Shown one piece after another: positions 9,953 through 19,021 of a stretch of DNA of 20,023 bases (position 1 is the first letter of the stretch; each line of letters opens with the position of its first letter). Made by a program: the position numbers and the translations under genes. This stretch comes from a virus. Location of the stretch: the IMG/VR virus record IMGVR_UViG_3300029952_000589, positions 1-20,023 of that record, one strand, 5' to 3'. The notes beneath the pieces were generated by a model. It searched no databases and was not told the origin of the DNA. It saw only the letters and a list, made by a program, of their open reading frames with translations.

Positions 9953-10141
9953 TTACTTATCCGCTGCTTTCCGCTGGTCATGTATTCCATTATACACTTC
10001 AATAGCAAGTCTATTGATTTCTTCTTCGTTATACATCATAGGGTTAGCGTTAACTCGGTTGTACTTTGCTTCCAGGATTGCGTAATCCTTAGCCAACTCA
10101 TAATACATGGCCTGCCAGCGCTTCTCTGTTTTGTCGATCAT
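9953..10141 (-). CDS. Small hypothetical protein (62 aa)
   Basis: ATG 10141 is one base after the stop of the RusA C-terminal frame (TAG-T-ATG), with AGAGG upstream. The product is charged and helical (DKTEKRWQAMYYELAKDYAILEAKYNRVNANPMMYNEEEINRLAIEVYNGI). No known domain is seen. Its last codons (QRKAAD) are encoded by a 17-base sequence found again at 14151-14167 in non-coding DNA. Confidence 0.6.
   Translation of the reverse strand: MIDKTEKRWQAMYYELAKDYAILEAKYNRVNANPMMYNEEEINRLAIEVYNGIHDQRKAADK
9961..9977. repeat. 17-bp direct repeat, copy 1 (copy 2 at 14151-14167)
   Basis: CCGCTGCTTTCCGCTGG occurs identically at 14151-14167 in the same orientation. Here it codes for the end of the 62-residue protein; there it lies in a gene-free gap. 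An exact 17-base match is unlikely by chance in 20 kb. A past short recombination or a shared binding site could explain it. Confidence 0.5.
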
Positions 10142-10142
10142 A

Positions 10143-10259
10143 CTATGCTGCCTCTTCTATATAAATCTCAACCCATTCATGGTCATCAATACCCTTGGTA
10201 AGCGTCAGGCTCCAGGTATAGCTGTCATCCCGGGCTAGGCCCATGAACACGGCATCCAT
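10143..10259 (-). CDS. RusA-like C-terminal fragment in a shifted frame
   Basis: This 38-residue frame (MDAVFMGLARDDSYTWSLTLTKGIDDHEWVEIYIEEAA) is the missing second half of a RusA Holliday-junction resolvase: it has the helix end (L-x-D-A-x-x-G), the catalytic-type Asp pair ARDDS, the strand with K, and the closing beta strand WVEIYI. It starts at ATG 10259 with GGAG eight bases upstream and overlaps the end of the first half by 25 bases in another frame. Joining the halves needs a one-base backward shift at GCC-TTA/ATG. It may be translated separately by reinitiation, or the gene may be broken. It is followed one base later by the 62-residue gene. Confidence 0.6.
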   Translation of the reverse strand: MDAVFMGLARDDSYTWSLTLTKGIDDHEWVEIYIEEAA

Positions 10260-10573
10260 AAGGCCTTCTCCATATTGGCAACATCCTTCTTCCTTACAGA
10301 GCCGTTCTTACATATCCAGCTTGGACCATAGAAGGTAGCCACAACCCTTACCTTGGCCCCTAACAGGCCCGCTAGAGCCTCTGGGTATCCTGGTGTGCTC
10401 ATTACCTGCTCTGTCACCTCGGCCTGTGCTGAGGCCTTCCAGGCCCTGGCAACATCTGCCTGTGCTGAGGCCTTCCAGGCCCTGGCAACATCGGTTAGGA
10501 CACGATGACGGCCCCGCTGGAAATAGAGGTGACTGGTTGTTGGGGGAAAACTGGAAAGGGTAAAGCGAAGCAT
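10235..10573 (-). CDS. RusA-like Holliday-junction resolvase, N-terminal part, frameshifted
   Basis: The 112-residue frame begins MLRFTLSSFPPTTSHLYFQRGRHRVLTD, the standard RusA start (strand, PPTTSxxY, basic loop, then an RxWKxxxxA helix). VRVVATFYGPSWICK and VRKKDVANMEKAL follow, equivalent to the RusA strand and the D-x-D-N-L-x-K active-site helix. RusA cuts Holliday junctions as a dimer using three Asp residues. Here the second Asp of the motif is Ala (D-V-A-N), a 12-residue segment (DVARAWKASAQA) is duplicated in tandem, and the frame then runs into 16 or fewer unrelated residues (WMPCSWA) and stops, while the expected C-terminus continues in the next frame at 10259-10143. This looks like a decayed or split gene. 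A sequencing error could explain the frameshift but not the Ala or the duplication. Confidence 0.65.
   Translation of the reverse strand: MLRFTLSSFPPTTSHLYFQRGRHRVLTDVARAWKASAQADVARAWKASAQAEVTEQVMSTPGYPEALAGLLGAKVRVVATFYGPSWICKNGSVRKKDVANMEKALWMPCSWA
10422..10492. repeat. 36-bp in-frame tandem duplication in RusA-like gene
   Basis: A 35-base sequence starting GCCTGTGCTGAGG occurs at 10422-10456 and again at 10458-10492, a period of 36 bases. It doubles the segment DVARAWKASAQA in the first helix of the RusA-like protein. The copies are identical, so the event is recent or maintained by gene conversion. Confidence 0.85.
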
Positions 10574-10684
10574 ATGGGGTCCTAGAGTAAGTGTCTGAAT
10601 AGGGATTGCTGGGGCTGCAGTGGGCCTAGAAGACTTGAAAGGTGGTGGGGTGGGTAATGTGGGGGCGGTTAGGCCCTTGGTGTT

Positions 10685-12259
10685 CTAAAGGTTAAATGGC
10701 GGGGTATCTAGCTTTGGGGTAGGTGGGACAGGATCACCAGGATAATGCTTAGGCCTCTTCTTGGCTTTTGTGCTTCCCTTGTAGTCATCATCAGATCCAA
10801 ATTCTTTTGGCTTAGCAATAGGTGGGACCTGTGCGTCTGTGATTCTACCAGTCATGATATCTACATCATAGGTCCAGCCCGGAACATCTTGAGACCATCG
10901 GCCCTTTAAGCCATGTATGAGACTACGATCATTATCTCGCATCCATTCCGGGGCTGAAATAGCAATACATTGTGAACAATGCCTAAAGATATCTGCTGAG
11001 TCTGCAATGGCTAACTGGTTATAGAAACCATCGTTTCTTTCGGCTTCCTTGATGCCATCCCTTGAAGCCTGCACAGGAGCTATGACAGCGATACCCTTTC
11101 CATTATTCCAGCTATCTGCCAGCACTTTGAGGCTTCTATGTAGCTCCCCGATCACCTTAAAGGTGGGGAGATTCTTTATGCGGGGAAGCTCCATTAGGCT
11201 GGGGCTATCGATGACCACAAATTGATAGGGCCTTGCTGGGTCCTCAAGGCCCTTCAGAACCGTTTCGATGCCTTGGGTGGTGTAACCTGCCGAGGTTCCA
11301 TCGATGATCGTTAGGCGGCCAGGGAGCAGGCTAAAATCATTGATGACAAAATCCCGCATGAAGTTGCCCTGCTCCTCTGTGAGTGAGCCTGTGGCCATGT
11401 CCAGGAATGGAACCTTGTTTCCGTAGGGTTCAAACTTTTCATGGCCTGAGTGCATGGAGTAGAGACGATATTGGACCTCCATTTTCCCCATCTCCAAGCT
11501 TACATAGGCCCCTGAGCATCCATTTTGAAGTGCGTTGTAGGCGATATTCTGGCACAGGGTTGATTTTCCATCCCTTGAGGCACCCAGGACAGTCAGGTAA
11601 TCCCCACCTCTGAGGCCCCGGAATGTATTGTCAATCATTTCATAACCTGTGAGGACAGGGTTACTCTGAGCATTCCGGGAGACCATGGCGTTATACTCTT
11701 TGATCCAGGTTGATGGGGATTGGACATGTTCCCATGTTTGGACTCCAGGGGTTCCTACCAGGGCATCTAGAAGTCCTACAGCTTCTTCTCTGATCTCAGA
11801 GAAGGCTTTCCCAGAGTAAAGCATTCCAGAGGCATTAGAGGCAATGTTAGTCCAGGAATCCATCTGTACGGCCCGGATCCATTGTTCCGTGAGGCCTGCC
11901 ACGTCTGAGGGGCTATAGGGGCAACCTTGCTGATACATCTGGACTAAAGATTGAAAGTCTGCTTCTTCATATGCCTTGGGGGCATCTTCTGGCTTTAGGT
12001 CTAGCTCTGTGTCTACCCGTCCAGCCAGGGAAGCAAATACTGTGGAAAATAATGTGATGGTTGGGGCCACTCCATGAGCTTCATAGTATGCCCGGCAATA
12101 ATTTAGGGCTCTGAGTTCAAAGTTACGGCTGTCAACCCTGCCAAGGATGGAAGATATTGAGTCCCAGGGCATCCTTGAACAGGCAAGGGAACCATCGTAG
12201 TCTTGTTCTTTGACTGAAAATAGCAACATGAGTGTATAGCTTGCTTCTGCGCAGATCAT
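10685..12259 (-). CDS. DnaB-like replicative helicase/ATPase
   Basis: A 524-residue RecA-fold ATPase that should unwind DNA at the phage fork as a hexamer. The N-terminal about 180 residues are helical and DnaB-N-like (NFELRALNYCRAYYEAHGVAPTITLFSTVFASL). The motor begins at GLRGGDYLTVLGASRDGKSTLCQNIA with Walker A GASRDGKST (226-234). Then come SLEMGKMEVQYRLYS (254-268, the catalytic Glu of SLEM), Walker B-like YQFVVIDSPSL, and IAPVQASRDGIKEAERNDGFYNQLAIADSADIFRHCSQCIAI, the sensor/H3 and H4 region of DnaB-type helicases. The C-terminal about 50 residues are Lys/Pro-rich and probably disordered. It follows the replication initiator by five bases. The TAG stop is followed by 37 open codons in the same frame before the RusA ATG. 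Confidence 0.88.
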   Translation of the reverse strand: MICAEASYTLMLLFSVKEQDYDGSLACSRMPWDSISSILGRVDSRNFELRALNYCRAYYEAHGVAPTITLFSTVFASLAGRVDTELDLKPEDAPKAYEEADFQSLVQMYQQGCPYSPSDVAGLTEQWIRAVQMDSWTNIASNASGMLYSGKAFSEIREEAVGLLDALVGTPGVQTWEHVQSPSTWIKEYNAMVSRNAQSNPVLTGYEMIDNTFRGLRGGDYLTVLGASRDGKSTLCQNIAYNALQNGCSGAYVSLEMGKMEVQYRLYSMHSGHEKFEPYGNKVPFLDMATGSLTEEQGNFMRDFVINDFSLLPGRLTIIDGTSAGYTTQGIETVLKGLEDPARPYQFVVIDSPSLMELPRIKNLPTFKVIGELHRSLKVLADSWNNGKGIAVIAPVQASRDGIKEAERNDGFYNQLAIADSADIFRHCSQCIAISAPEWMRDNDRSLIHGLKGRWSQDVPGWTYDVDIMTGRITDAQVPPIAKPKEFGSDDDYKGSTKAKKRPKHYPGDPVPPTPKLDTPPFNL

Positions 12260-12264
12260 TATCT

Positions 12265-13314
12265 CTATCCTTTAAAATTAGCGAGTGCTGGTAGGTCAAT
12301 TGCGGATGGCCCTTGGGCCTTGGCAACCCCGACAGAAAGGGCGCCAGCCAGGGAAGTAAGGGTCGCAGGCTTGATTGCTTTGGGTCCCTGTGGCTTAGGT
12401 TGGGGTTGAGTCTTGGCCATGAGTGCGGCCTGCTGCTGCGCAGCCTTCCGCTTGCGGGCTCGCTCCCCATTCCAGCGGGTGATCTGACCTCTCATCAGGG
12501 CGGCATACTCTGCCGCTTTCCCTGGGGCTATGGCCCAGTGGAGGGGTGGGGAAAACTGATTACCTGCCTTACTAGGGAGGTCAAGGTCCCACCTGTGGTG
12601 GCCACACCATTGGATGGCAAGCCAAGCATTTTCAAGCCAGTCAGGGTTCTTGGTATGATAGGACCATAGATTCTCAGGGAACAATTTTGGTGATGCTGGC
12701 CTCAATAGGCCTGATTTATCCGAGGCCAGGACCTCATTCCACTGGGATAGGACCCATTCATAGAGATCATCCTGTGATGATGGGGTAGGGATATCAGGGA
12801 TTCTAATAGGTTCTAGACCGGGATCAATAGGGGAAACCTTGATAGGCTCACTCTCCCTTTCAGAAATAAGATCAACCTCAACCAATGGCACCTCTGGTGC
12901 TGCTAGGTTAGTCGTTGTCGGTTTATTGTTTATTGGTTTATCGTTATTGGTTATTGGTTGATATGCATTTCGGTGTACCTCCGGTGTACCTTTCGGTGTA
13001 CCTTTCGGTGTACCTTCGGTGTCCCTTATTTTGTTTTCCTTAAGCCTGCCATCACTATCTTTGATAGGTGGATGACTCTTATTCTCCCTGTAGTTCCTGG
13101 TAGCCCCTAACGTTTCTGCACCTAAAGTGTACCCCATCATGTATGTCTGGTCGTCCTTATACGGAACCGGGACGGGTGCCCCATTGAATCCTTTAGCAAG
13201 ACCACGTAAAAACATAGCCATCTCGATATCCGTATCCAGACTCATAAATACATAATTGAAGCTATCAAGATTAAGTTGCAGTGCCCATAATCTATCATCC
13301 TTTTTCCTTGGCAT
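12265..13314 (-). CDS. Replication initiator-like protein (λ O/DnaT-like role)
   Basis: A 349-residue protein in three parts. Residues 1 to about 85 form an N-terminal domain (WALQLNLDSFNYVFMSLDTDIEMAMFLRGLAKGFNGAP...TYMMGYTLGAETLG). Residues about 95-185 are a Thr/Pro/Asn-rich linker with TPKGTPKGTPE repeats. From about 190 a C-terminal domain (LYEWVLSQWNEVLASDKSGLLRPASPKLFPENLW...WLENAWLAIQWCGHHRWDLDLP) resembles the tryptophan-rich helical C-terminus of phage replication proteins that load a helicase. It is placed directly before the DnaB-like helicase, and the linker DNA holds iteron-like repeats, as λ O carries ori in its own gene. Start ATG 13314 is one base after the previous stop, with AAGGGG upstream. 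The N-terminal domain is not one I recognise. Confidence 0.65.
   Translation of the reverse strand: MPRKKDDRLWALQLNLDSFNYVFMSLDTDIEMAMFLRGLAKGFNGAPVPVPYKDDQTYMMGYTLGAETLGATRNYRENKSHPPIKDSDGRLKENKIRDTEGTPKGTPKGTPEVHRNAYQPITNNDKPINNKPTTTNLAAPEVPLVEVDLISERESEPIKVSPIDPGLEPIRIPDIPTPSSQDDLYEWVLSQWNEVLASDKSGLLRPASPKLFPENLWSYHTKNPDWLENAWLAIQWCGHHRWDLDLPSKAGNQFSPPLHWAIAPGKAAEYAALMRGQITRWNGERARKRKAAQQQAALMAKTQPQPKPQGPKAIKPATLTSLAGALSVGVAKAQGPSAIDLPALANFKG
12921..13025. promoter_or_regulatory. Candidate origin of replication (iterons + AT-rich element)
   Basis: Five copies of CGGTGTACC (last copy CGGTGTCCC) start at 12971, 12982, 12994, 13006 and 13017, about 11-12 bases apart and so roughly on one face of the helix. 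Directly adjacent, 12921-12960 is a tract of short TTATTGG/TTTATTG repeats suited to be the unwinding element. The set lies in the linker-coding part of the initiator gene, the arrangement known for λ ori inside gene O. The simple protein repeats (KGTP) may be a consequence of the DNA constraint, or the reverse. Confidence 0.6.
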
Positions 13315-13315
13315 A

Positions 13316-13558
13316 TTACTTGCGCCCCTTTCTTCCCAGGATGTTTCCCCCTGAAATTCCGAGTAGATAACCCATCACGTAAGGCTCAGGTTTATCTGTG
13401 ATCCCGTGCCTTTCGCTCAGAACCCTATTCACCACTTGGAGGTGTACTAGATCACCCTCAAGTTTCTTAATCTTTCCCTGCAGGTACGCAATTTCAACGT
13501 CCTTAGGATCTTCACTAGTAATATTGACCACCTTCATTTTATCCCCAGATTCTTTCAT
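13316..13558 (-). CDS. Small hypothetical protein with coiled coil (80 aa)
   Basis: The frame starts at ATG 13558, overlapping the stop of the upstream gene (TAATG); a second ATG seven codons later (MKVVNI) has GGGG upstream and could also be used. Residues about 15-50 form a coiled-coil helix (KDVEIAYLQGKIKKLEGDLVHLQVVNRVLSER). The C-terminus YVMGYLLGISGGNILGRKGRK repeats the pattern Y-x-M-G-Y-x-L-G found in the N-terminal domain of the next gene, the replication initiator (YMMGYTLGAETLG). One base separates the two genes. It may be a replication accessory protein or a fragment related to the initiator; I do not recognise a family. Confidence 0.62.
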   Translation of the reverse strand: MKESGDKMKVVNITSEDPKDVEIAYLQGKIKKLEGDLVHLQVVNRVLSERHGITDKPEPYVMGYLLGISGGNILGRKGRK

Positions 13559-13842
13559 TACTTACCTCTCTCGGTTTCTTTCCGTAGCGCCTTATTTTCT
13601 TCTTTCCATTCATCCCATGCTGCATGTAGGGCCTCTATAGCCTCAGAACATGCTCCACGGATAATTATGTGATTCTCCCAGGAAACAATGCCCCGTGGGT
13701 AAAGCTTCCAGATGGTTTTTTTATCTGGCCGGGCTCCCTCAGTATTAATCCAATAATCACGGATAGCGTCTGATGCTAGGTCCCCAATAGAATCATCTCT
13801 GTCGGCTTGGTAGTGAAGCCACCTGTTGAATGATTTAGCCAT
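13558..13842 (-). CDS. YozE SAM-like domain protein
   Basis: I place the start at ATG 13842 (MAKSFNRWL...), because AGGAG lies seven bases upstream; the longer frame to 13887 has poor spacing. The 94-residue protein matches the YozE_SAM_like pattern: F-x-x-W-L-x-x-Q (SFNRWLHYQADRDDSIGDLASDAIRDYW) and a closing helix with ALHAAWDEWKEE, which corresponds to the AWDQY end of Bacillus YozE. The fold is a small helical bundle whose function is unknown. In phages such genes sit among early genes, as here, just upstream of the replication block. Its stop overlaps the next start (TAATG). Confidence 0.7.
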   Translation of the reverse strand: MAKSFNRWLHYQADRDDSIGDLASDAIRDYWINTEGARPDKKTIWKLYPRGIVSWENHIIIRGACSEAIEALHAAWDEWKEENKALRKETERGK

Positions 13843-14199
13843 TTCGGCTCCTATAGATAAATTCCACCCCAACCTATCTGAAGTCATCCCCCAGGATTCA
13901 ACCGCGAGCGGTAATCACAGGCAACAGATAGATTGAGGTGAAGGGTTTGATATTGACGATCATTGTTTTCTTCCATGTGGGATGAGCCACGGTATGTATT
14001 ACTATACGGCAGATGTTTCTACCAACTAAAGGGGAAAGATGCCTCCCAACCTAGCCTTAAAGGCCAGTCCGTAATCAGGCTTACACATTTGCCCCAAAAA
14101 TAAATTTAACCTCAAACAATTTGTGTGAGATTAGCAGGGCTGTCCATCTGCCGCTGCTTTCCGCTGGAGGTTTCATGAGGCCCCAGGGGATCCCAGGGC
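13843..14199. other. 357-base gap without a confident gene
   Basis: No convincing gene is seen on either strand. Two tiny minus frames exist, 13884-13976 (30 codons, ATGA overlap with the longer YozE frame) and 14081-14176 (31 codons), neither with a good ribosome site. The segment holds a short dyad ACCGC-GA-GCGGT (13901-13912), a GCCTTAAAGGC dyad near 14054-14064, an A/T-rich patch at 14095-14120 and the second copy of the 17-base repeat. It may carry the promoter of the YozE/replication operon, but no clear -35/-10 pair was found. Confidence 0.5.
14151..14167. repeat. 17-bp direct repeat, copy 2
   Basis: Identical to 9961-9977, same orientation, here in the gap downstream of the 119-residue gene. 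Confidence 0.5.
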
Positions 14200-14559
14200 C
14201 TATCGACTATTCCGCCGGATTACGTTCTTGCTCTTCCTGATCCCGTAAATGGTAAGCCTACCATCCCAGGTAATATGGAAGTCCTTTCCTTCCATAAGTC
14301 CAGATTCATTTGCTGATTCAGCCAAGTCATACTTGAGTTCTTCCAGGGCAATTTCATCCGCATGCTCTTCCATATATGTGCGGTGATTATCCCGGATAAT
14401 ATTTTCCCTGGCCGTGATGAATGCCACCTCCAACCAGTCTGGAAGGAACCAACCCTTAGCATGGCCATATCGATTTATCCCTGTCTTTACCAGCTTACTT
14501 GGATTGACGTTGAGGCTATGCAGGGCCAATACGTTGTTACTCTGATTTTTAACGCGCAT
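14200..14559 (-). CDS. Hypothetical protein (119 aa)
   Basis: ATG 14559 is preceded by AAGGAG at good spacing, one of the strongest ribosome sites in the window. The protein begins MRVKNQSNNVLALHSLNVNPSKLVKTGINRYGHAKGWFLPDWLEVAFITARENIIRDNHRTYMEEHADEI, with a Trp-rich middle and an acidic helix (YMEEHADEIALEELKYDLAESANESG), and ends in a beta/basic stretch (HITWDGRLTIYGIRKSKNVIRRNSR). The basic tail could bind nucleic acid. No known family or membrane segment is recognised. It lies among early genes, downstream of a more GC-rich neighbour. Confidence 0.7.
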   Translation of the reverse strand: MRVKNQSNNVLALHSLNVNPSKLVKTGINRYGHAKGWFLPDWLEVAFITARENIIRDNHRTYMEEHADEIALEELKYDLAESANESGLMEGKDFHITWDGRLTIYGIRKSKNVIRRNSR

Positions 14560-14603
14560 TACTTTATCTCCTTAAGTTAGGTTACAATAGCTGATACGAT
14601 CAA

Positions 14604-14879
14604 TCATCCCAGCACCCATCCGGCGGGCGTCCAGGTCCACCCGGTCAGGGCGCGGGCAATGTCGGCACTGGTGATCCGGCAGGCCCCTACCCCCAGGACT
14701 AGATCAGCCGTGGCCTGGGCTACGTCCCGCAGATCCCGGACGCCATAGGGCAGGTAGTCGCCATGGCTGGTATTTTTCCGGATGGTTGCGCGGATGATCC
14801 TGGCCGCGACCGGATCCACATAGACGGCGAATCGGCCACTGCTGTCTCGCGCCTGAGTCTTGTACACGGTCTTGTTCAT
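14604..14879 (-). CDS. Hypothetical protein, GC-rich (91 aa)
   Basis: ATG 14879 has GGGAGGAGC upstream and overlaps the stop of the previous gene (ATGA). The product starts MNKTVYKTQARDSSGRFAVYVDPVAARIIRATIRKNTSHGDYLPYG, then an Ala-rich helix VRDLRDVAQATADLVLGVGA and ITSADIARALTGWTWTPAGWVLG. The coding DNA is clearly richer in G and C than the genes on either side, which hints at a separate origin. No known domain is recognised. Confidence 0.65.
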   Translation of the reverse strand: MNKTVYKTQARDSSGRFAVYVDPVAARIIRATIRKNTSHGDYLPYGVRDLRDVAQATADLVLGVGACRITSADIARALTGWTWTPAGWVLG

Positions 14880-15115
14880 TGGTTGCTCCTCCCGCTACGT
14901 CCTGCCACCTGATTAGGTAGTCCACGGACAAGGTCTGCCTTGATCTCCTGATATGTCCTCTGGATATCCTCCATGACCGTCTTTGTACGCTCAAACTTGG
15001 AAACAAGGTCCTCTATGGTTTCCTTCTGCTTTAGGTTTTCCTGGATCAGTTCCCGGATGATCTCCTCATCCTCTAGTAGTTCCGCTTCCAGTTCCGCCTT
15101 AGTGCTCTTGCTCAT
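14876..15115 (-). CDS. Small coiled-coil protein (79 aa)
   Basis: Start chosen at ATG 15115 (MSKSTKAELEAELLEDEE...), because GGAGG lies seven bases upstream; a frame from TTG 15160 is open but lacks support and overlaps a promoter-like site. Nearly the whole protein is one charged helix with heptads (ELEAELLEDEEIIRELIQENLKQKETIEDLVSKFERTKTVMEDIQRTYQEIKADL), ending in a basic tail (GRSGRSNQ). It should form a coiled-coil dimer. No family is recognised. The stop overlaps the next start by ATGA. Confidence 0.7.
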   Translation of the reverse strand: MSKSTKAELEAELLEDEEIIRELIQENLKQKETIEDLVSKFERTKTVMEDIQRTYQEIKADLVRGLPNQVAGRSGRSNQ

Positions 15116-15131
15116 ATTGCCTCCGGACCAC

Positions 15132-15160
15132 ATAGTGGAGTCGGCTACTGACAGTGTCAA
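15132..15160 (-). promoter_or_regulatory. Candidate promoter with operator-like dyad
   Basis: The minus strand has a perfect -35 TTGACA (15160-15155) and, 17 bases on, a weak -10 CACTAT (15137-15132). The -35 is part of a perfect dyad TGACA-N-TGTCA (15149-15159), which could be bound by a repressor. The start of the 79-residue gene is only about 17 bases beyond the -10, so the leader would be very short. Weak evidence overall. Confidence 0.28.
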
Positions 15161-15221
15161 CGCCTTATTTCAGGAGATTATATTTACAGCATTTCAAGCA
15201 AGGCAGAGAGTATTTAGATAA

Positions 15222-15265
15222 TAGCCGACCATGGCCACAGGACTAGCCTATAGCCATGTCGACTA
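15222..15265. repeat. Imperfect inverted repeat in intergenic gap
   Basis: TAGCCGACCATGGC (15222-15235) and GCCATGTCGACTA (15253-15265) are inverted copies with one mismatch and one gap, separated by 17 bases. No T-run follows on either strand, so it is not a simple terminator. It could be an operator, a recombination site or an RNA hairpin in the leader of the 79-residue gene. A perfect TATAAT lies nearby on the minus strand (15182-15177) without a good -35. Confidence 0.45.
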
Positions 15266-15278
15266 TATTTAGAGTGAG

Positions 15279-15524
15279 CTAAAGACAGGCTAGCCTTTCG
15301 TAGTCTGCCAGCATTTTCAGATGCCCCACCGCCCATGAGTCCCTGTCCATGATCATCACATCAGGGGTTACGCTGGCCAGGACCCGGGCACACTCCCCAT
15401 AGCTCCGCTGGGGGATCAGAATACGCATACGCAGGTATGCCACATGGATCCTGTCCAGGGCATCATTCATGGCGTCCAGGACCTCCATCTCATGGACCTG
15501 CATTTCTGCTTTGGTCTGCCTCAT
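15279..15524 (-). CDS. Hypothetical protein (81 aa)
   Basis: ATG 15524 follows GGAGG at good spacing. The protein is helical: MRQTKAEMQVHEMEVLDAMNDALDRIHVAYLRMRILIPQRS, then YGECARVLASVTPDVMIMDRDSWAVGHLKMLADYERLACL. No known motif or membrane segment is visible, and I do not recognise it. It stands alone between the terminator at 15569-15607 upstream and the inverted repeat at 15222-15265 downstream. Confidence 0.65.
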   Translation of the reverse strand: MRQTKAEMQVHEMEVLDAMNDALDRIHVAYLRMRILIPQRSYGECARVLASVTPDVMIMDRDSWAVGHLKMLADYERLACL

Positions 15525-15568
15525 GCCTGCCTCCTAATCCAGATACTTTCGGCGGCTGGGGATCTATC

Positions 15569-15607
15569 AAAAAAGTTTGAGGCCCCAGGTGGTGGTCCAG
15601 GGCCTCA
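15569..15607 (-). terminator. Intrinsic terminator
   Basis: On the minus strand the perfect eight-pair stem TGAGGCCC/GGGCCTCA encloses 14 bases and is followed after AAC by six T. It lies about 85 bases downstream of the small overlapping frame at 15691-15831. TTGATA, a -35-like hexamer, begins in the last T residues and points to the next gene, but no good -10 follows. Confidence 0.65.
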
Positions 15608-15690
15608 GGGTGGGATGCCTCGGGATCTGCTCCCTCTCATACAATTTAGATTTCTTCTGACCCCTAAGAAACTTGACCCTCACCCCAAAC

Positions 15691-15831
15691 TTATTTCAGG
15701 TGATCCACGTAAAATATTCTCCGGTTGCTTCTTTCTCTGTCCAGTTCCCTCATCCTCAGTATCATTTCTTCTATCAGTTTCAGTTTTTCCGGGTCTCTCT
15801 CAGGCCCCAGTCCTTCTCCATCACCGTCCAT
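15691..15831 (-). CDS. Possible small overlapping gene (46 aa)
   Basis: From ATG 15831 an open frame of 46 codons overlaps the last 52 bases of the 90-residue gene in another frame and continues past its stop. Its second half, DPEKLKLIEEMILRMRELDRERSNRRIFYVDHLK, reads like a real amphipathic helix. The ribosome site is weak, so translation would depend on the upstream gene. A shorter start at the internal ATG (MILRMRELD) is possible. It might instead be the frameshifted C-terminus of the upstream gene. Confidence 0.4.
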   Translation of the reverse strand: MDGDGEGLGPERDPEKLKLIEEMILRMRELDRERSNRRIFYVDHLK

Positions 15832-16052
15832 ACCGCTATCTTGACCCCATCAATAGTATTTTGCAGATAAGTATACTTGTCATCATCATACGTAATGCTA
15901 TATGTTAGCTCTAGTTCATCATAACTGACAATCCGGCCTAGCTCCAGTTCCATCAAATATTCCAGGATGGCTAGGCCACTTGTGCCACCAGCCTTGTGTT
16001 TAAAATGCTTGCCATTGGGTCTCCTGATCGAGACCATAAAAATATTGCTCAT
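15780..16052 (-). CDS. Hypothetical protein (90 aa)
   Basis: ATG 16052 has GAGG eleven bases upstream. The sequence MSNIFMVSIRRPNGKHFKHKAGGTSGLAILEYLMELELGRIVSYDELELTYSITYDDDKYTYLQNTIDGVKIAVWTVMEKDWGLRETRKN suggests a small mixed alpha/beta protein rich in tyrosine and acid residues. I recognise no family and see no membrane segment. It is the second gene after the promoter at 16274-16302, downstream of the FmdB-like gene, and before the terminator at 15569-15607. Confidence 0.65.
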   Translation of the reverse strand: MSNIFMVSIRRPNGKHFKHKAGGTSGLAILEYLMELELGRIVSYDELELTYSITYDDDKYTYLQNTIDGVKIAVWTVMEKDWGLRETRKN

Positions 16053-16083
16053 GATATTTGATCCTCTCTACTAAAGAGAAGTA

Positions 16084-16260
16084 TCAAGAATATCCATTCT
16101 CATAGCTATATCCGGCTATCACAAAAGAGCATGAGGTAAGCACTCTTTCCATGGCTTCCTGGTGGCAATTGGGACACTCAATAGGGTCTATGGATTCCAT
16201 GCGCTCTAGGTAATCTTCACATAAATTGCATGACTTACAAAATCGCTGATACATCGGCAT
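16084..16260 (-). CDS. FmdB-type zinc-ribbon protein (58 aa)
   Basis: This short gene starts MPMYQRFCKSCNLCEDYLERMESIDPIECPNCHQEAMERVL and ends SFVIAGYSYENGYS. This is the FmdB-family pattern: M-P-x-Y, CxxC (C8, C11), a second CxxC (CPNC, 29-32), the R/K-V/L-x-S motif and a hydrophobic Tyr/Gly-rich end. Four cysteines should bind one zinc. Such proteins are short and often encoded by phages; their role is not established, and DNA or regulatory binding is assumed. The ATG at 16260 follows GAGG at ten bases, downstream of a promoter-like site. It is the first gene of its transcription unit. Confidence 0.75.
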   Translation of the reverse strand: MPMYQRFCKSCNLCEDYLERMESIDPIECPNCHQEAMERVLTSCSFVIAGYSYENGYS

Positions 16261-16273
16261 CTATAATATCCTC

Positions 16274-16302
16274 ACTATACTTAATTCTGATTTTAGATAC
16301 AA
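16274..16302 (-). promoter_or_regulatory. Candidate promoter for FmdB-like gene
   Basis: On the minus strand TTGTAT (16302-16297) and TATAGT (16279-16274) are separated by 17 bases; the -10 matches five of six consensus bases. The -35 begins inside the T-run of the preceding terminator, so the upstream unit ends and a new one starts within a few bases. Confidence 0.5.
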
Positions 16303-16331
16303 AAAGGCCCCAGCGTTTTGCCAGGGCCTTT
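16301..16331 (-). terminator. Strong intrinsic terminator
   Basis: On the minus strand AAAGGCCCTGGC pairs with GCTGGGGCCTTT (twelve pairs, two of them G-T) around the loop AAAAC, followed by TTTTT. It lies about 20 bases after the stop of the 242-residue gene. The opposite strand has a weaker TTTGTTT run, so weak bidirectional action is possible. Confidence 0.85.
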
Positions 16332-16350
16332 GTTTATGTATTGATATATG

Positions 16351-17079
16351 CTACTTGGCCAGCGCCTTTGCAGACTTAGCTGCTTTGTTCGCTGCAACCT
16401 TGGCAGGGTCCTTCTCAGCCCGCAGCCGGATAGCTCCAGTTCCCTTGATGCGGCCATTAGCCGCCATGCAACCGCCCAGATGAAGGACAGCCTTCTCCAT
16501 CAGGACATCATCATTGACCAGGGTCCTCAGCTTTTCCTTGAGCATGTCAGGATCCAGATACTCAGCCTGATTCAGGGTCTCTGGCTGCATCCCTACCATG
16601 ATCTTGGCCAGTTCGCCTACCACGGCATCAACCCCAGCCTTCGCAGCCTTGGGGGCCTTCTCGCGCTCCCCTAGCTTGGCCGTGGCATCTGCCCTGGCCC
16701 ATTCGATGACAGGCTCTAGGTCTAGCTTGGCCTTTTCCAGTGAATTCAACAGGTCAAGGCCCAGGATATTGAGCGCTGCATTTTCCAGGGTGGATTTACG
16801 GCCAGCCTTAATAAGCTCGTCATGCTTTTTGATGATGGCGTCAACATCGGCCAGCCTCAAGGTAGGCTGCTTGCACTCATAGCTAACTTTGTCCTTACCG
16901 CCCTTGCTTGTCACAGTCCGGGTGGGGGTATCAATGGCAAAATGATGGAAGTGTGCCATGTACTTTCCATTGGGGTCTGCATGGAAAGCTAGCACCTGGG
17001 AGGGGTCTGCAAACTTTTCTACCATGTCTGGGGTCTCCTGTGGGTTGGGGTTGGGGGTAAACTTTTTGATGGTAGCCAT
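16351..17079 (-). CDS. Hypothetical protein (242 aa), Lys/Ala-rich C-terminus
   Basis: I chose ATG 17079 (MATIKKFTPNPNPQETPDMV...), since AGGAG stands seven bases upstream; the longer open frame from 17205 would overlap the 53-residue gene. The protein has an N-terminal beta-like part with His-rich YMAHFHHFAIDTPTRTVTSKGGKDKVSYECKQPTLRL, then a mostly helical stretch with ENAALNILGLDLLNSLEKAKLDLEPVIEWARADATAKLGEREKAPKAAK, and ends in AEKDPAKVAANKAAKSAKALAK, a Lys/Ala tail that may contact nucleic acid. No known family is recognised. The strong terminator at 16301-16331 follows directly, so this gene ends its transcript. Confidence 0.7.
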   Translation of the reverse strand: MATIKKFTPNPNPQETPDMVEKFADPSQVLAFHADPNGKYMAHFHHFAIDTPTRTVTSKGGKDKVSYECKQPTLRLADVDAIIKKHDELIKAGRKSTLENAALNILGLDLLNSLEKAKLDLEPVIEWARADATAKLGEREKAPKAAKAGVDAVVGELAKIMVGMQPETLNQAEYLDPDMLKEKLRTLVNDDVLMEKAVLHLGGCMAANGRIKGTGAIRLRAEKDPAKVAANKAAKSAKALAK

Positions 17080-17176
17080 TGGTAAGCTCCTGTGCTGGTC
17101 TGAGTGTAAGAGGGTTGAGGTTAATTGTGGTAGGGGAAATATCTGAATCACGGTGATCTTGCCATGTCTGCCCTCT

Positions 17177-17338
17177 CTAGTCTGTGGGTTGCTTGCCGTG
17201 GCCATGGATGGCCTTACGCTTGGCTTGGTAGTCCTTCCAGTAGGCCTCTAGCTGCTGGCCATACTTTTTCACGATGCTTACTCGGTCATTACCTGCTAGG
17301 AATTCCTCAAGCTTTGCTTCGATGTTGTCATTAGCCAC
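17177..17338 (-). CDS. Small hypothetical protein (53 aa), GTG start
   Basis: An open frame from GTG 17338, with GGAGGCGAA directly upstream, encodes MANDNIEAKLEEFLAGNDRVSIVKKYGQQLEAYWKDYQAKRKAIHGHGKQPTD. It is charged and helical, with a His-Gly tail. No family is recognised. The ribosome site begins about eight bases after the T-run of the hairpin at 17358-17378, so there is no room for a promoter between them: transcription must read through the hairpin. The next gene begins 97 bases downstream. Confidence 0.65.
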   Translation of the reverse strand: MANDNIEAKLEEFLAGNDRVSIVKKYGQQLEAYWKDYQAKRKAIHGHGKQPTD

Positions 17339-17345
17339 TTCGCCT

Positions 17346-17387
17346 CCAATGCAAAAAGGCTACCTCTTAGAGGTAGCCCAATGCAAA
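17346..17387 (-). terminator. Terminator/attenuator hairpin flanked by direct repeats
   Basis: GGCTACCTC (17358-17366) and GAGGTAGCC (17370-17378) form a perfect nine-pair stem with a three-base loop, followed on the minus strand by TTTTTGC. The identical ten-base sequence CCAATGCAAA flanks it on both sides (17346-17355 and 17378-17387). It terminates the integrase transcript but also lies only about 20 bases before the 53-residue gene, which fits attenuation. Confidence 0.75.
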
Positions 17388-17435
17388 GGATATTTTTTGG
17401 TAATGTGTAAGTAGGGTTACGGATTGGGGTTAGGA

Positions 17436-18584
17436 CTACTTTAGAATGTCCTCAGCAGTGAGACCCAACAGCTTAAGGATACGCTTGCTCACCCTTTCGG
17501 CCACTGGCCGTAATGGCTTAACATTTTGCATGAAGTATGCTTGCCGGGAACCTTTGTGGCCGTGGTCGATTAGTGAATCAAGCTGGTTAATCTGTTCCGC
17601 CATGTCCTCCCCGCAGGATGCAAAGCTCTTTCTTAGGCTATGTGGTGCCAAATGTGGCATATTGGAATGCCTTGTTATCCATTTGCAAGTTCTGTTAAGC
17701 CTATAATGATCAGATTCTACAAACTTAGCTATAAGTGGCTGAGCAGCCTTAGGGATAACATGTCCCGTGGATAGTTTGACTCCCCGTGTCCCCTCAGGGA
17801 AAAACAATGTCCCTTCATCAACCCTCCACTGCGGGTCATAGTTGAGCATTACTCCATCACGGCAACCGCATAACAGTTGAAACATGAGCAGGTATTTATC
17901 TTCCCTGGGGCATTCCATCCAAGCCTGACCCCAGGGCTTCCACTCTTGGGGTTCCAAACTTCTCTTTTTAACAGGTATTTTATATTTTTTTCTGCCCCAT
18001 ACAGGATTAAGTCTTGTGCCTTCTTCTTTTGGCCAATAGATACCCGCAATTCTCCATAGCTCAGATATTAAGCTCTGGATCTTGTTTGCCATGGCCTTAC
18101 GGGTTAGGCCGATGCCATCAAGAAAATTGTTAACCATTCCGCTATCAATATCCTTGATTGGTTGTCCCGCAAAGAATGGCTGCACCAGACGGGTCCAAAC
18201 ATCCTCTTGGAATTCCTGATGATCAATGGAGACCTTAGGAAGATGAACCACCTTGTACTTTTCCCAGACTATATCCAGGGTCAGGGCCTTTGGTGCTGCT
18301 GGAGGTGGGGCAGGAGCTTCCACCTTGCGGGGGTCAATCCCCTGGAGCAACATTCTGCGCTTGGCTACTGCCTCTTCCTTGGCCTGCTCTAGGGTGGCCT
18401 TGCCAAACTCAGCGTCCAGGGTGAACACGATTGGTTTCTTTCCCCCATATCTGAGGATCCAGCTTTTCCGGCCAGCAGGGGTCATCGCAAAGGTTAGGCC
18501 AGGGGTCCCCGGCCAGGAATACCAAAGCTGCTTTCCAGTAGCCTCTAGGGTCCTGAGTTCTGTGTATGTGTACCGCTTGGCCAT
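17436..18584 (-). CDS. int: Tyrosine integrase
   Basis: A 382-residue site-specific recombinase for integration and excision of the phage. ATG 18584 (MAKRYTYTELR...) has GGAGG seven bases upstream and is preferred to the longer frame from 18608. The N-terminal domain (about 20-85, WYSWPGTPGLTFAMTPAGRKSWILRYGGKKPIVFTLDAEFGKATLEQAKEEA) resembles the arm-binding domain of P4-type integrases. A SAM-like core-binding domain follows (about 105-190). The catalytic domain shows the set Arg in CGCRDGVML (R242), HSLR (H315, R318), DHGHKG (H341/H343) and the nucleophile Tyr in RQAYFMQN (Y350). A Pro/Ala linker (EAPAPPPAAPKA) joins the first two domains. The attP candidate lies directly upstream. A terminator follows. 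Confidence 0.93.
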   Translation of the reverse strand: MAKRYTYTELRTLEATGKQLWYSWPGTPGLTFAMTPAGRKSWILRYGGKKPIVFTLDAEFGKATLEQAKEEAVAKRRMLLQGIDPRKVEAPAPPPAAPKALTLDIVWEKYKVVHLPKVSIDHQEFQEDVWTRLVQPFFAGQPIKDIDSGMVNNFLDGIGLTRKAMANKIQSLISELWRIAGIYWPKEEGTRLNPVWGRKKYKIPVKKRSLEPQEWKPWGQAWMECPREDKYLLMFQLLCGCRDGVMLNYDPQWRVDEGTLFFPEGTRGVKLSTGHVIPKAAQPLIAKFVESDHYRLNRTCKWITRHSNMPHLAPHSLRKSFASCGEDMAEQINQLDSLIDHGHKGSRQAYFMQNVKPLRPVAERVSKRILKLLGLTAEDILK

Positions 18585-19021
18585 GGATGACCTCCCAGGA
18601 TCCAGCATACAACCTTGGCCCCCTGGCTATACAACTAAATCCTGTGATGGCATTCATCATTCCATGTTTTCATCATGACCAGAGGCTAGGCCGAGAGTAT
18701 TTAAGTTGATTAGAAAAGCCACTTTGTGTATTCCTGCTTACACCTTGAGCCCTTACCCCAAAATGGCCATTCATCCATGACAATTCACCACCTGGGATTT
18801 TCCCATTTGTCTTAACTCCCTGTATTATCAACGTTTTGGCATAGGGTTGTATTGGGTACCCGGCCATAGCTATACAACCTGTATACAACTGAGCTTGGGC
18901 CAACAGTCTGCCTCACAGGCCCCCAGGGCTCAGGAGACCTCAGACCATCTCTACACCCTCCAGGGTCCTTCGACGCCTTCCAGCCCCCATGGAGCCCCTG
19001 CATAAGCCAGCCTATTAATTT
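18585..19021. other. 437-base gene-free segment, candidate attP
   Basis: No confident gene is seen; a TTG-start minus frame at 18673-18903 runs through the repeats and is rejected. The motif ATACAAC occurs five times: 18607-18613, 18629-18635, 18872-18878 and 18883-18889 on the plus strand, and 18846-18852 on the minus strand. Two clusters, about 210 bases apart, flank an internal segment. Copy spacing of 22 and 11 bases is near whole helical turns. Such clustered repeats beside an integrase gene are typical arm-type sites, with the core crossover site expected between them (about 18640-18840). The core itself cannot be identified from one sequence. Confidence 0.6.

Follow-up and report, generated by a model that had tools for sequence, protein, structure and literature searches.

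A probable iteron-type origin of replication inside the initiator gene of an uncultured phage

The window analyzed here is a whole IMG/VR virus record of 20,023 bases (IMGVR_UViG_3300029952_000589, positions 1–20,023), in which all recognizable phage genes lie on the minus strand. The features at issue occupy two neighboring genes and are as follows.

13314 to 12265, minus strand: open reading frame of 349 residues, probable replication initiator by position and embedded array.
13126 to 13133, minus strand: lone one-mismatch copy of the repeat, AGTGTACC, in the initiator gene upstream of the array.
12968 to 13027, minus strand: iteron array, four copies of GGTACACCG and one of GGGACACCG as read on the coding strand, spaced 11–12 bp and in three codon phases.
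12920 to 12962, minus strand: AT-rich tract, candidate unwinding element, built from about five CCAATAA-like 7-mers and lying between the iterons and the 3′ end of the initiator gene.
12259 to 10685, minus strand: gene for a DnaB-like replicative helicase of 524 residues, its start 5 nt beyond the stop codon of the initiator gene.

On the plus strand, exact copies of GGTGTACC stand at 12972, 12983, 12995 and 13007, and a fifth copy at 13018, GGTGTCCC, has one mismatch, giving spacings of 11, 12, 12 and 11 bases. Along the coding strand of the initiator-like frame the array reads GGGACACCGAA GGTACACCGAAA GGTACACCGAAA GGTACACCGGA GGTACACCGAA; it lies about 290 nt inside the gene, at 28–32% of the way along the 349-residue frame. 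The lone copy at 13126–13133 could be either an outlying site or a product of chance. With one mismatch allowed, the motif occurs 17 times in the window against 11.8 expected, which is about chance frequency.

The arrangement of the copies is harder to obtain by chance or by coding. Among arrays of exact 8-mers within 60 nt, the richest in the window has four copies, and in 100 dinucleotide shuffles of the 20-kb sequence the best never exceeded three (three copies in 4 shuffles, two in 96). When the gene was recoded synonymously with the phage's own codon usage, the observed array score of 37 was reached in 0 of 1,500 recodings (best 30, mean 5), and the four copies of GGTACACC compare with a mean of 0.26 and a maximum of 3 across 3,000 recodings. 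Read along the gene, the five copies have codon phases 1, 0, 0, 0 and 2, because two 11-nt spacings shift the reading frame, and they translate as DTE, then GTP GTP GTP, then VHR. A peptide repeat would not preserve a DNA motif through such a change of frame. Because the copies occupy three codon phases and none of the 1,500 recodings equals the array, it is the DNA and not the peptide that has been kept, and these tandem iterons in the coding region of the initiator gene are preserved at the DNA level.

Beside the iterons, on the 3′ side of the gene and arranged as in phage L and P22, lies a tract of 43 bases that is 72% A+T and repeats with a 7-nt period 5.3 times (TTATTGG-like on the plus strand). 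Its sequence, ATCAACCAATAACCAATAACGATAAACCAATAAACAATAAACC, sits a few bases further into the gene than the iterons. Tandem arrays are few in the 20 kb; the iterons and the AT repeats are two of them and adjoin each other. Among the 43-mers of the 14 window genes tested, just 0.5% are equally A+T-rich; 8 of 3,000 recodings matched the 7-mer score of the tract, and 104 of 3,000 matched its A+T content. In predicted duplex stability the tract ranks among the lowest 0.7% of 40-nt stretches (137 of 19,983), although ten or more sites elsewhere in the window are weaker still.

The gene directly downstream, across the 5-nt gap, encodes a DnaB-type helicase, as in modules of the P22/L type. Its product matches PF03796 DnaB_C (E = 2e-12) and the DnaB-like family phrog_19 (E = 3e-26), and its match to TIGR03600 phage_DnaB (2.5e-11) is below the family cut-off. 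The loader P of the lambda O–P module is absent after the initiator, where the next gene is this helicase. Searches for relatives of the helicase gave none in IMG/VR and only distant DnaB-like matches among phages. A perfect 36-bp tandem duplication (two copies, 10422–10492) lies in a small frame just after the helicase gene. The initial annotation of this DNA had listed five CGGTGTACC repeats at 11–12-base spacing, an adjoining AT-rich tract of TTATTGG-like repeats and a DnaB-like helicase gene directly downstream of the initiator-like gene; the tract and the helicase are borne out by the measurements above, as are the spacing and four exact copies, but the fifth copy carries a mismatch.

The 349-residue frame consists of an N-terminal region of about 100 residues, a low-complexity linker that holds both the iterons and the AT-rich tract, and a C-terminal part. 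Pfam, PHROGs and NCBIfam gave no family match for the protein up to E 1. It has no profile match to Phage_rep_O (PF04492), gp18 or lambda O, in agreement with the earlier description of a non-lambda N-terminal domain with different iterons, and Pfam detects no DUF1376 (PF07120) N-terminal domain in it up to E 1. There was likewise no match in the PDB, no BLAST similarity to phage L gp18, and no relative in IMG/VR, phages or plasmids; at the DNA level, positions 10000–18700 found none among phages. Single-sequence AlphaFold models reached a pLDDT of 40 over the full length and of 51 over residues 1–100, too poor for naming a fold. Because no homologue was found, it is by position and layout that we take the protein to be, probably, the initiator. 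Just upstream lies an 80-residue gene (13316–13558) whose product has a YxMGYxLG stretch in common with the N-terminal region of the initiator (BLAST E 0.03). The two genes also share a 19-nt DNA repeat at 79% (13130–13148), and a partial duplication is possible. Two short IMG/VR contigs (L002 and L003) are 98–100% identical to the window in the terminase, so the phage or a very close relative is present in other samples. The match is confined to the C-terminal part of the terminase, near where the contigs end, and neither contig reaches the initiator.

The repeats are best read, with a probability of about 0.8, as an iteron-type origin of replication lying within the initiator gene. The repeats, their three-phase reading, the AT-rich tract, the gene order and the helicase domain all support the embedded origin that the initial annotation had proposed. 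In such an origin the five iterons would most likely be bound by the 349-residue protein, a different protein being a less likely binder; at 11–12 bp the iterons recur about once per helical turn and would thus present themselves on one face of the DNA. Initiator and iterons could then form a nucleoprotein complex that destabilizes the neighboring 43 bp of AT-rich DNA toward the 3′ end of the gene, and the DnaB-like helicase encoded by the next gene could be recruited onto the melted strands. We infer binding, melting and helicase loading from lambda, SPP1 and P22, and likewise that replication would start here. Cumulative GC skew, which had been suggested as a check, has a local maximum near 12.9 kb, where an origin would usually show a minimum; with its sign reversed, it lends the origin no support. 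No DnaA boxes occur near the array (the nearest is at 12041), an Rfam search gave no match and a tRNA search found none. The record is possibly a fragment, and a further origin may lie outside its 20,023 bases.

Other phage initiator genes, found without searching for the motif of the window, also contain embedded arrays. DUF1376 genes were collected by searching 299 genomes of a single phylum, and at 5 of 25 loci the array clearly outdoes every one of 12 synonymous shuffles; the period of these arrays is mostly 11 nt. At the loci L198, L199, L201, L211 and L212, 11-nt arrays beat their synonymous shuffles with motifs that vary by locus; the DUF1376 array motifs include AACGACCGTGC, AACGGCGTTCC, GACGGGGACAG and TGTAACGCC, and at L201 the array stands at the start of the open frame. 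These observations suggest that DUF1376 proteins are replication initiators with embedded origins. Several loci with Phage_rep_O genes have arrays about 20–24 nt apart, and O-like initiator homologues, fetched by protein similarity, have lineage-specific linker motifs (GCACATAA, GCACATG, CGATGAACC and TGTCTCTAA). Embedded arrays of diverging sequence are common in phage initiators, and the window fits this pattern.

In IMG/VR a search for three spaced copies of GGTGTACC turned up 20 loci; 7 of these lie in the linker of that same O-like family and one just after a DUF1376 frame. Two control motifs gave 5 and 13 loci, none of them clearly an initiator. Searching with GTACACC added a further initiator, L041, whose copies stand in several phases. 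Of the proteins that share the core, those compared have no similarity to the window protein apart from the repeat-encoded peptide. A GGTACACC core common to several initiators is only suggestive, because the O-like loci are one family. GTACACC by itself is not diagnostic, because arrays with 11-bp spacing also occur in unrelated places, and as a universal phage iteron it was rejected: it is found in structural genes with GTP repeats, near terminase-like genes and between bacterial genes, and the independent families are too few. For example, triple GTACACC arrays with 11-bp spacing, apparently mostly intergenic, occur at loci L052–L131, chiefly in Rhodobacteraceae (such as L053, L057, L063 and L081), and in Nioella and its relatives they occur many times per genome, away from recognized initiators. 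Short non-coding GTACACC-type arrays with 11-bp spacing also lie a few kilobases from T7-like large-terminase-like genes (L043/L044, L045/L047/L050 and L049), where they are possibly genome-end repeats. More broadly, the 349-residue protein could be the earliest known representative of a novel family of initiators that bind DNA through a fold unlike those of lambda O, P22 gp18 and DUF1376, and its GGTACACC iteron, recurring in unrelated phage initiator genes, could be a recognition sequence common to initiator families; the two proposals taken together we regard as improbable.

A special case of the embedded origin, overlapping with our preferred reading, is that what binds the iterons is a protein of the host or a different protein of the phage. 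The 349-residue protein has no recognizable DNA-binding domain, and the GGTACACC core appears in the linkers of unrelated initiators (L026, L028, L030, L031, L033, L036 and L039 of the O-like family, and L041) and just after the DUF1376 frame in L023. However, that core was found by searching for it, and per independent family its excess over the two control motifs is too small for a claim; moreover, in characterized embedded origins the binder is the product of the surrounding gene, as with lambda O and SPP1 gp38 (PMC7466680, PMC6316719). We judge a foreign binder improbable.

Alternatively, the repeats could be only a low-complexity peptide linker of GTPK repeats, grown by DNA slippage and with no function at the DNA level. 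The array does lie in a linker, three of its five copies share a frame and encode GTPKGTPKGTPE, and phage structural genes with GTP-repeat proteins contain the same DNA. Nevertheless, the motif is kept through the two 11-nt spacings that change the frame, the recodings of the gene never equal the array score, and a second and different repeat array lies beside it, which together make this explanation quite improbable. In a further and similarly improbable reading, the array could be a protein-binding site with another job, such as an operator of the initiator–helicase operon or a partition-type site; iteron arrays can also serve as control sites, and intergenic GTACACC arrays with 11-bp spacing exist in many bacteria with no initiator nearby, but the array lies well inside the gene and not at a promoter, promoter-like sites in the region are no commoner than in shuffles, and the adjoining AT-rich tract gives an order typical of embedded origins.

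The embedded-origin reading places a likely replication start, together with its initiator, in an uncultured phage whose initiator the databases do not recognize. It also provides a practical rule, in which a short linker repeat that is kept across reading frames flags both an initiator and its origin, with no need for sequence homology. The same test reveals embedded arrays in a share of the genes of DUF1376, a Pfam family labeled ‘unknown function’.

Iterons inside an initiator gene are known from other phages. The origin of lambda and Stx phages lies midway through O and comprises iterons and an AT-rich tract (PMC7466680), a layout shared by the window; by contrast, these phages have 4–6 long iterons, the gene that follows encodes the loader P instead of a helicase, and the lambda O family has no sequence similarity to the window initiator. 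SPP1 oriL lies within gene 38, where direct repeats and an AT-rich unwinding element also fall inside the initiator gene (PMC6316719), but SPP1 has a separate loader, gp39, besides its helicase gp40, and a second origin, oriR, elsewhere. The O-like IMG/VR initiators (L036 and L028, for example) and L041 share with the window a GGTACACC/GTACACC core at 11–12-bp spacing in the linker, followed by an AT-rich stretch, and are unrelated to the window protein outside the repeat-encoded GTP stretch.

The modules of the Salmonella phages L (MW013502) and P22, re-read with the same code as the window, served as positive controls. P22 gene 18 contains repeats 20–24 nt apart and an 80% A+T tract and is followed by the DnaB-like gene 12; the annotated origin inside gene 18, the AT-rich tract 3′ of the repeats and the helicase gene next in line all resemble the window, whereas the 20–24-bp iteron spacing and an initiator annotated as O-like do not. 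Gene 18 of phage L was reported to have six imprecise 11-bp repeats as a likely origin, and gp12 should be a DnaB-type helicase (PMC8022706). In our reading the O/gp18 gene of phage L contains copies of TGTCCAACG at 11-nt spacing in phases 0, 2, 1, 0 and 2, at 44–53% of the gene; a tract of 85% A+T follows, succeeded by the DnaB-like gene 12, and MW013502 annotates a rep_origin inside O/gp18. Phage L and the window thus have in common 11-bp iterons in three phases within the initiator gene, an AT-rich tract on their 3′ side and a DnaB-type helicase gene next. They differ in the iteron itself (TGTCCAACGGA in phage L, GGTACACCGAA in the window), in the earlier position of the window array within its gene, other features of the layout matching, and in their proteins, the initiators having no detectable similarity and the helicases sharing only a short stretch at 22% identity. 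The initial annotation had likened the locus to the lambda O/ori plan, and an origin inside the initiator gene is indeed common to both; P22 and phage L are closer, however, as a helicase gene follows and not the loader P. Salmonella phage L is the closest match, and the plan is P22/L-like, with initiator and helicase, rather than strictly lambda-like. The design is already known from lambda, P22 and L, and the window is a further example, best read as a gene 18–gene 12 module of the P22/phage L kind with an unrelated initiator sequence.
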